64,000 nucleotides of DNA from Phycisphaeraceae bacterium (GTDB lineage Bacteria; Planctomycetota; Phycisphaerae; Phycisphaerales; Zrk34): positions 124,001-188,000 of the forward strand of contig JANQHD010000009.1 in NCBI GenBank assembly GCA_028282805.1. The letters are read 5' to 3'. The notes beneath the pieces were generated by a model. That model had not been told where the DNA came from, ran no database searches, and saw only the letters and a list, made by a program, of their open reading frames with translations. Shown here one piece after another: positions 26,261-54,582 of the stretch. The position numbers were made by a program, and so were the translations under genes. How positions within the stretch are numbered: position 1 is the stretch's first letter; the number at the start of each line of letters is the position of its first letter.

Positions 26261-26348
26261 ACCACAGAGGCACAGAGACACAGAGAATTGTTTCTGTATA
26301 CAGCCGAAGCTCGAATCTTATCTTAAAAAACCTCTGTGCCTCTGTGGT
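26261..26348. repeat. CACAGAGGCACAGAG inverted repeat between methyltransferase stop and rsmD start
   Basis: A 17-bp perfect inverted pair: ACCACAGAGGCACAGAG at 26261-26277 and its complement at 26332-26348, with further CACAGAG words inside. The right arm touches the TAA stop of the minus-strand methyltransferase (26348-26350); the left arm ends 12 bases before the rsmD ATG. The 54-base interior is AT-rich and non-coding. The arm start TACCrCrGAGGCrC matches the arms at 28053-28447 except for A/G exchanges. Confidence 0.85.
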
Positions 26349-28034: not shown

Positions 28035-28052
28035 CGGTGAGTCGTATTCTTG

Positions 28053-28447
28053 TTTACCGCGGAGGCGCGAAGAGCGCGGAGGGACGCGGAGGTTGATTGG
28101 ATGTCAAGGCTCGACGATGTTGCACCGGAACTGAACGAGCGTGGCATCCCGTTCTTCCGGCAACACGCGATAGACCTGATCTATAAGGGCCACCCCGTGG
28201 GCGACGGCCGACTTGATCTGTTGGTCGATCAGCGGGTCGTGGTTGAGCTCAAGTCCGTCGACAGGCTTGCCCCCGTGCATGAGGCTCAAGTCCTCTCCTA
28301 CCTTAAGACCGGTGGCTATCCCGTCGGGCTGTTGATGAATTTCAACGTGCCCAGGCTCCGCGATGGCGTCCGCCGTTTCGTGCATTCCGCATAAACCAAA
28401 ACAATCACCTCCGCGTCTCTCCGCGCTCTTCGCGCCTCCGCGGTAAA
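28053..28447. mobile_element. 395-bp inverted-repeat element carrying a GxxExxY gene fragment
   Basis: Arms at 28053-28099 and 28402-28447 are nearly identical inverted copies (about 45 of 46 positions plus one extra base). They are made of GCGGAGG/GCGCGGAG-type words. The interior holds a 97-codon reading frame of the GxxExxY family. No transposase is present and I see no clear target duplication. It lies between methyltransferase B (18 bases after its stop) and hisS (31 bases before its start). The arms start like those at 26261. Confidence 0.78.
28101..28394 (+). pseudogene. GxxExxY-family protein, N-terminally truncated
   Basis: 97 codons. The C-terminal two-thirds match the GxxExxY family (PDDEXK_3-like): FRQHAIDLIYKGHPVGDGRLDLLVDQRVVVELKSVDRL, given here as two overlapping parts FRQHAIDLIYKG and RLDLLVDQRVVVELKSVD, then HEAQVLSYLKTGGYPVGLLMNFN. 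The acidic and lysine residues of a nuclease-like core (D...E.K) remain. The N-terminal helix with the family motif GPGLLESxY is missing; the ATG follows the left repeat arm directly. It may be a remnant or a re-started short form. Confidence 0.8.
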
Positions 28448-53301: not shown

Positions 53302-54465
53302 ATGCCCCGTCACCTCGGTTCATCGTGGCTGATTCTTTCGTTCGCCTTGGCCGTGTGGCTGGTCGCGTGCCAGCCCCAGCGGACCGCTGCGCCCGGGCCG
53401 AGTCAGGCCGACGCCGTTGCCGCGCAGGCCCAGGCTTACGCCGACCGCCTGTCGGCCGAGACGCCGGACGCGGACGAGGAGGAGGTCAAGTGGCTGACGC
53501 CCGAGCCGCCCAAGCCGTTCGCCGACAAGCGGATCGCTTACAACCACAAACCGCCGAGCACGGTGCGCATCGACCACGGGGCGCTGAACGCAACCAAACC
53601 CGATCAACCCGAGGCCGACCGCACCGCCGGGCCGGCCGTGACCCAGCTGACCGACCCCACCGCCCCGACCGACAAGCCGGCGCCCGCGCCCGCCGACGAT
53701 CACGTGGGCCAACCCGAAGACGTCGACCCGGCCAAGCCGATGACGCGCGACGAATTGGTCGCGGAGCTGAGCAAGATGCTGGCCCGCGAGTCGGCGACTG
53801 ATCGCAAGACGCTGCGGCCGTGGCTGGCGCGCGTGGCGCTGGCGGCGATCGACCCGCGCTACGAGTTGACCGAGGCGGAACTCGCCAAGCTCACCCCGGC
53901 CGACCGCGCGGTGGTGCTGGCCTACCAGCAGACGCTGACCGACGTCGGCCAGAGCCTCGGCGATTCGTACAAGTCCGACCGCGAGGCGCTGAGGGTCATC
54001 GCCGACCAGATGAACAAGCGCATCAACCCCAGCAAGACGCTGACGATCAAAAACGCCACGCTCTGCCGCAAGGTCAAGGGCTTCGGCGTCTACGAAGACT
54101 TCGGCTCCAACACCTTCCTCGCCGGCAAGACCCAGCCCGTGATCGTTTACGCCGAGCTCGACCACTTCCGCTCGCTCAAGCGCGACGACGGGGTCTACGT
54201 CGTCAAGCTCACGCAGGAGGTCGTGCTCTACAACGACTCCGACGGCCTGCCCATCTGGCGGCAAAAGCCCGTGTCGATCAAGGACGAGTCCCGCAACGTC
54301 CGCCGCGACTTCTTCGTGGTGCAGATCATCCAGCTGTCGAGCCGGCTGACCGTGGGCAAGTACGACATGAAGATCACCATCACCGACGAGCTCGGCGAAC
54401 AGGTCGACGAGACGGCCATCCCTATCGAGATTGTCGCGGACCCGAGTTTAACGCTGAGGCGGTGA
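53302..54465 (+). CDS. putative lipoprotein of unknown function
   Basis: 387 codons from the ATG at 53302, preceded by AAGGAGG. Signal peptide and lipobox WLVAC (Cys about residue 22). Then a Pro/Ala/Asp-rich linker, a helical part (ELVAELSKMLARESATDRKT) and a beta-rich C-terminal domain ending IPIEIVADPSLTLRR. No family recognised. The stop is followed at once by the word array at 54465. Confidence 0.72.
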   Translation: MPRHLGSSWLILSFALAVWLVACQPQRTAAPGPSQADAVAAQAQAYADRLSAETPDADEEEVKWLTPEPPKPFADKRIAYNHKPPSTVRIDHGALNATKPDQPEADRTAGPAVTQLTDPTAPTDKPAPAPADDHVGQPEDVDPAKPMTRDELVAELSKMLARESATDRKTLRPWLARVALAAIDPRYELTEAELAKLTPADRAVVLAYQQTLTDVGQSLGDSYKSDREALRVIADQMNKRINPSKTLTIKNATLCRKVKGFGVYEDFGSNTFLAGKTQPVIVYAELDHFRSLKRDDGVYVVKLTQEVVLYNDSDGLPIWRQKPVSIKDESRNVRRDFFVVQIIQLSSRLTVGKYDMKITITDELGEQVDETAIPIEIVADPSLTLRR

Positions 54466-54582
54466 GCCAACAGGCAAGAGCCATCAGCCAACAGAAGTCA
54501 GGTGCGCACTGGGTGGTCAAGTCACCAAACACTCGGTGAGTGACCTTGACGCCTGTTGCCAGTTGCCTTTTGCCTGTTGGCT
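54465..54582. repeat. short-word inverted array (GCCAACAGGCAA words) upstream of pyrR
   Basis: Left arm 54465-54494 (AGCCAACAGGCAAGAGCCAT plus a second copy) and right arm 54551-54582 (CCTGTTGCCAGTTGCC, TTTTGCCTGTTGGCT) are imperfect complements. Between them lies the hairpin CACTC-GG-TGAGTG (54531-54543). The left arm starts on the last base of the lipoprotein stop codon. Because it precedes pyrR, an attenuator role is possible, but I see no PyrR-binding consensus. Confidence 0.65.

Follow-up and report, generated by a model that had tools for sequence, protein, structure and literature searches.

GxxExxY genes and inverted arms of a 7-bp word form a recurrent unit, probably a minimal mobile element

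We found that most full-length GxxExxY genes lie between a pair of inverted arms made of a short repeated word. Judged from sequence comparison alone, gene and arms are one recurrent unit, and these units and their arm-only derivatives are dispersed and missing from orthologous sites. We think it probable that the unit is a minimal mobile element with a nuclease that reads the arms, and that the copy in the window (the whole 64,000-nucleotide stretch of DNA from a Phycisphaeraceae bacterium that was analyzed) is a defective member. The class is widespread and apparently has not been described. Among 5.39 million open-licence papers there is hardly any mention of the family name or accessions, and the arm words were not found as text; a description elsewhere is not excluded.

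The window copy is a unit of 395 bp, a truncated gene between inverted arms, located between a methyltransferase gene and hisS (Table 1). An earlier sequence-only reading of the window had described arms of 46-47 bp around a truncated 97-codon GxxExxY frame that lacks the N-terminal motif, with no transposase present, and each part of this description held up. The core of the arms is 98% complementary over 41 nt. A one-gap alignment of the two arms scored 40.5, compared to a maximum of 15 in shuffled sequences (n=100) and 11 in the direct orientation. The open reading frame has 97 codons from its own start and 114 if read from an upstream TTG at 28050. In profile searches the protein scored 91.3 bits against TIGR04256 (cut-off 35) and 94.6 bits against PF13366 (cut-off 22), and both matches began only at profile position 32-33. 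Alignment to full-length relatives, in which motif residues G18, G20, E23 and Y26 are invariant, indicated that the deleted domain residues include the GxxExxY motif and that the D, ExK and QxxxY residues are retained. By this alignment the gene is a truncated relative and not a typical family member, and its product is probably inactive. GxxExxY is the sole gene in the unit and no transposase was found inside. The unit is in a spacer between protein genes, not in 23S rRNA, and it matched no known RNA family. The window copy is a worn or defective member that is not itself special; the class that it revealed is.

Table 1. Positions of the features of the GxxExxY unit and of a second arm pair in the window
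Feature	Position	Strand	Description
Second arm pair	26261..26348	.	noncoding, words CACAGAG; MITE-like derivative of the same class
Whole unit	28053..28447		
Left inverted arm	28053..28099	+	four tandem words CGCGGAG / CGCGAAG / CGCGGAG / CGCGGAG, spacings 8, 9, 10
Left-arm words	28058-28064, 28066-28072, 28075-28081, 28085-28091		
Arm cores	28053-28093 and 28407-28447		
GxxExxY (TIGR04256 / PF13366) gene, 5'-truncated	28101..28394	+	97 codons; domain residues 5-27 missing
Right inverted arm	28402..28447	-	four words identical to the left arm, in identical order

The link between family and arms, which the sequence-only reading had inferred from this one copy, proved real and general. Inverted arms were found at 128 of 144 full-length copies from multiple phyla. 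These copies were drawn from relatives and from 84,980 scanned species, and arms were called when they beat 50 shuffles; several of the 16 copies scored as armless still have recognizable words. In an additional set, 80 of 83 copies had inverted arms. In 115 of 116 comparisons an arm also resembled its partner more closely than it did the arms of elements elsewhere in that genome. The elements have a median length of 485 bp. None of the 20 members of an orthologous single-copy lineage in one family of the order (L202-L221) had arms. These 20 form one clade with full support. The lineage is probably domesticated, and it serves as an internal control for the link between arms and gene. Beyond the earlier reading are the arrays of words within the arms, the common noncoding arm pairs, and a set of sister elements with a four-helix-bundle gene.

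Each arm is built from repeats of a 7-bp word of the form C-R-C-N-[G/A]-A-G, with a minority class that ends in GAT. Words are mostly spaced 8-10 bp apart and there are usually three per arm (four in the window unit). When the arms of one element are compared with each other, 5.5% of word positions and 35% of linker positions mismatch (p ~1e-85). Letter 5 of the word varied freely between elements, with only a 3.9% difference between arms. At orthologous sites, divergence was 8.8% in words, 34.7% in linkers, and 26% just outside the element. Since local alignment was used to define the arms and a pattern to define the words, the absolute rates are somewhat biased; the contrast is large. In these alignments the words, and not the linkers, are held equal between arms and over time.

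It is possible to imagine that the arms are a transcribed hairpin, a site of mRNA processing or termination as in the rRNA intervening sequences that are cut by RNase III, and that the gene is a passenger. The arms are long and complementary, the genes are mostly co-directional with their neighbors, and the intervening sequence in the 23S rRNA of Coxiella burnetii has a 28-bp stem that is cleaved by RNase III in vitro (PMC4990558). However, the differences between arms had no sense-strand G.U bias (130 vs 138, p=0.67), and a helix does not require that words match while 35% of the linker is mismatched. On these two grounds we rejected a reading of the arms as an RNA stem, and we regard a hairpin as very unlikely. 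Inverted arms can also correct each other during replication. The likeness of the arms might then be mere mutational correction of quasi-palindromes by template switching, with no recognition at all. Such correction would fix the linkers too, yet linkers mismatch six times as often as words, and it leaves unexplained the correspondence between a protein residue and a word letter described below. We rejected this notion on the contrast between words and linkers, and find it scarcely credible. Because the words match while the linkers do not, the arms look like protein sites and not like a hairpin. This contrast, together with the lack of G.U bias, points to putative protein sites and away from a simple hairpin or palindrome correction.

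The words correspond to a residue in the protein. In a scan of alignment columns, domain residue 2 (the T of LTxxIIG) was the best predictor of word letter 5, with z ~24, far above the other columns. Among ~150 copies compared, Thr at residue 2 occurred with G at letter 5 in 58 of 59 cases and Ala occurred with A in 19 of 20, while Ser was found with either letter. We also compared independent pairs that differ in letter 5 (n=17). The residue was as expected in 14 pairs, the opposite in none, and tied in 3 (p=1.2e-4 for a single column and ~0.015 when corrected for ~120 columns). The tree used for these pairs was made without the N-terminal residues. All of its branches were used, many of them weakly supported, because a test restricted to starred branches had just 3 pairs and no power. 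The prediction was fixed before a fresh set of copies was examined: 24 of the 25 copies with Thr had G, and 13 of the 14 with Ala had A. This set is not wholly independent by descent. In addition, the class of word (GAG/AAG vs GAT) tracked the protein clade, with 2 changes against no fewer than 4 in any of 2000 shuffles made within genomes, in a test limited to genomes that hold both word classes. Physical linkage of arms and gene explains part of the correlation between clade and word, but not the repeated co-switching. From these comparisons we infer that the GxxExxY protein very likely recognizes the arms around its own gene. The sequence-only reading had suggested a role for the protein in movement or maintenance. 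A role at the arms is supported by the correspondence between residue and word. That the protein catalyzes movement has not been shown. Recognition has good comparative support, and both cutting and movement by the protein are inferences.

The predicted structure has a nuclease fold. In the AlphaFold model (pLDDT 96.4) the protein adopts a PD-(D/E)XK fold, and residue 2 lies where helix 1 begins. Among solved structures the best match was SSO0001, a member of the Cas4 family (Z 9.9 over 98 residues); Holliday junction resolvases had Z near 7, and there were no sequence relatives in the PDB. Across 61 sequences D63, E73 and Q87 never vary, and K75 (of ExK) and Y91 (of QxxxY) are conserved in at least 90%. 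By motif and by modeled fold the protein belongs to the PD-(D/E)XK group of the Cas4/RecB type; its enzyme activity is inferred. Like SSO0001, lambda exonuclease and Hjc, it has this fold and the D, ExK and QxxxY residues. Unlike them, it is about half the size, lacks conserved iron-sulfur cysteines, and is encoded within its own arms. It does not qualify as Cas4, which has iron-sulfur cysteine ligands and cas neighbors: no cysteine was found in the invariant or near-invariant columns, and Cas4 profiles gave only weak scores. The gene was co-directional with its upstream neighbor in 49 cases and not in 10, and with its downstream neighbor in 44 and not in 7. This is greater than one half and only modestly greater than expected from operons, and we give it little weight.

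The arm sequence recurs, as the earlier reading had proposed to check in the genome and its relatives. The whole genome of the window has ~20 pairs of forward and reverse arms. One pair encloses a full-length GxxExxY gene between his genes (C6), another is the window copy, and another encloses a remnant (C5). Two of the remaining pairs surround other open reading frames, and the rest are noncoding, some with nested palindromic elements. In 81 related genomes, a strict two-word pattern had up to 174 matches per genome and the reversed pattern had almost none. The number of arm hits was correlated with the number of GxxExxY copies (Spearman 0.80). Noncoding arm pairs are far more numerous than genes. 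MITEs are recognized by many short noncoding copies that share arms with an autonomous element, and copies of this kind are present. Insertion sequences are recognized by terminal inverted repeats, which are present, and by a known transposase gene, which is not; GxxExxY is alone inside. The autonomy of the full-length element is inferred only.

Several individual loci are worth recording. The pairs around other open reading frames (L338, and L196 at C50) enclose a 275-aa frame with weak similarity to DUF4262 and a small protein with a carboxypeptidase-regulatory-like domain. In three cases (L339, L340 and L341, at C52, C30 and C20), CACAGAG arms have other palindromic repeats nested inside, and in two of these the inner repeat is GTTTAGCCGCGACCCGCAGGGGAGCGC, which contains a stretch of 7-nt units. 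The element between hisC and hisB is common to the window's genome and a congener (L005 and L201); in the congener the gene is broken by a frameshift. Some noncoding arm pairs (L112, L123, L101 and L103) are in tandem arrays with a near-identical spacer of 17-20 bp and differing interiors.

Orthologous sites without the unit were found, a point that the sequence-only reading had proposed to check. Neither of the conditions it had named as refuting its reading, arms confined to this site and a gene at every orthologous site, was fulfilled. The spacer between the methyltransferase gene and hisS has no GxxExxY unit in six genomes of the family; in one it is 18 bp, and in others it holds unrelated arm pairs with other words. 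A groEL/dnaJ-like spacer in seven species of one genus holds an element in two, is 43-76 bp in three, and holds other inserts in two. The genes that bound this spacer are identified only by how they read. L167 and L168, related elements found at unrelated sites, share 81% identity, which stops at the ends of the arms. In one Singulisphaera genome, two copies 77 kb apart are 98% identical over 446 bp, and the shared sequence continues on either side for ~25 bp beyond the arms. The true ends of the element are unsettled, because this identity extends beyond the arms. No strain-level empty site that would fix the ends was found, and a search for plasmid copies with near-identical empty sites yielded only eight distant records. 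No target-site duplication was established: there was no general signal, and the available empty sites are too diverged. Mobility rests on comparison only, and no movement was observed.

Some candidates were set aside. An apparent signal for a 4-nt target-site duplication was accounted for by inverted TTGA/TCAA ends, and direct repeats of 17-20 bp were found only in tandem arrays. A phage origin was not supported, with no match in phages and one locus in viral contigs. In one species (L294), the spacer that houses the GxxExxY element in sister species holds a macro-domain-like gene.

The genes are under purifying selection, with dN/dS of 0.04-0.14 in most sister gene pairs, and at several fixed sites both gene and words are conserved at dS above 1. 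It is possible that the element was turned into, or kept as, a host gene (in defense, repair or regulation) whose product binds its own flanking sites, and that dispersal is a side effect. The selection, the conservation of words at fixed sites, and the existence of the armless orthologous lineage favor this. In contrast, GxxExxY is patchy within genus and family, there are several copies per genome, and noncoding derivatives are many. We consider it unlikely that the unit is simply a host gene. Still, a purely selfish copy would not need to persist at one site with gene and words conserved at such distances, and some host function is possible.

Our preferred reading, a minimal mobile element, could work as follows. 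An intact element consists of one gene, for a PD-(D/E)XK (Cas4/RecB-like) nuclease of ~120 residues, between two inverted arms. The N-terminal end of helix 1 is inferred to touch the word. The protein would bind the word arrays at both ends and cut there, and host repair would help to copy or move the cut element into spacers between genes; these steps, too, are inferred. Short copies reduced to arms, and the window copy, whose gene is broken, would either be remnants or depend on a protein supplied in trans for their movement. A stronger proposal is that this is a categorically new self-mobilizing kind of element, in which a single Cas4-like nuclease of ~120 residues, without a known transposase, reads the word arrays of both arms by way of a code at an N-terminal residue (Thr2-G, Ala2-A at letter 5), moves itself and arm-only copies, and diversifies by co-switching the residue and all the words of both arms. 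We offer this tentatively, as something that could readily turn out either way and that we do not yet believe. A small nuclease whose specificity can be read from one residue, with sites that are short and modular, would be a new system of DNA recognition. The unit gives a testable role to an orphan family annotated in many genomes, and it explains dispersed repeats of a large class, both in this bacterial order and in other phyla.

By architecture, the nearest described element is the intervening sequence in the 23S rRNA of C. burnetii. Intervening sequences with an S23 open reading frame are alike in having about 430 bp, terminal inverted arms, a single frame of ~120 codons, and no transposase, and they are considered selfish (PMC4990558). 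In contrast, they are in helix 45 of rRNA, are excised as RNA, and encode a four-helix bundle; GxxExxY units are found in spacers flanked by protein genes, and their product has a PD-(D/E)XK fold. No rRNA was found at the 20 GxxExxY loci scanned. The units resemble MITEs and insertion sequences in their terminal inverted repeats, dispersal, absence at orthologous sites, and abundant short noncoding derivatives. They differ in lacking a DDE, HUH/Y1, serine or tyrosine transposase, in having no target-site duplication that was found, and in having arms that are arrays of short words. REP and REPIN sequences are palindromes of 20-40 bp tied to RAYT (Y1) enzymes. They too are short palindromic units dispersed in intergenic DNA; GxxExxY arms hold several direct words, and the gene tied to them encodes a PD-(D/E)XK protein. 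Literature on REP and REPIN sequences includes PMC3733652 and PMC3116915. Another class of 7-nt intergenic repeats, the TAACTGA repeats, is reported from Beggiatoaceae (PMC4679880).

The four-helix-bundle genes of family TIGR02436 sit in elements built on the same plan. At 27 of 29 tested loci (L038-L067) they were flanked by inverted arms composed of short tandem units. As in GxxExxY elements, one small gene lies between the arms, and the units agree within an element and vary from one element to the next. The protein is unrelated, the units are mostly 7 nt (7-8 nt), and the words are far more varied. Because these genes do not encode a nuclease, the enzyme that moves both kinds of element may be shared or host-borne. 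That is, an enzyme of the host or of another element might mobilize the arms, and GxxExxY, like the four-helix-bundle protein, might be only a binding adaptor, repressor or protector. The great excess of noncoding arm pairs over genes and the few unrelated open reading frames between such arms are also in keeping with this. Against this stand the invariance of the catalytic D, E and Q in 61 sequences, the conservation of the Lys of ExK and the Tyr of QxxxY, and the correlation between arm number and GxxExxY copy number in the 81 genomes, which persists after correction for four-helix-bundle copies (partial 0.60). We regard mobilization by another enzyme as a serious contender, if a rather unlikely one, and the four-helix-bundle parallel is the strongest doubt about GxxExxY as the mover. 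These parallel elements may also be relevant to a long-standing problem, the spread of rRNA intervening sequences. The window itself contains an arm pair of the four-helix-bundle type without a gene, at 54465-54582, made of 7-nt tandem units (AGCCAACAGGCAAGAGCCATCAGCC...).
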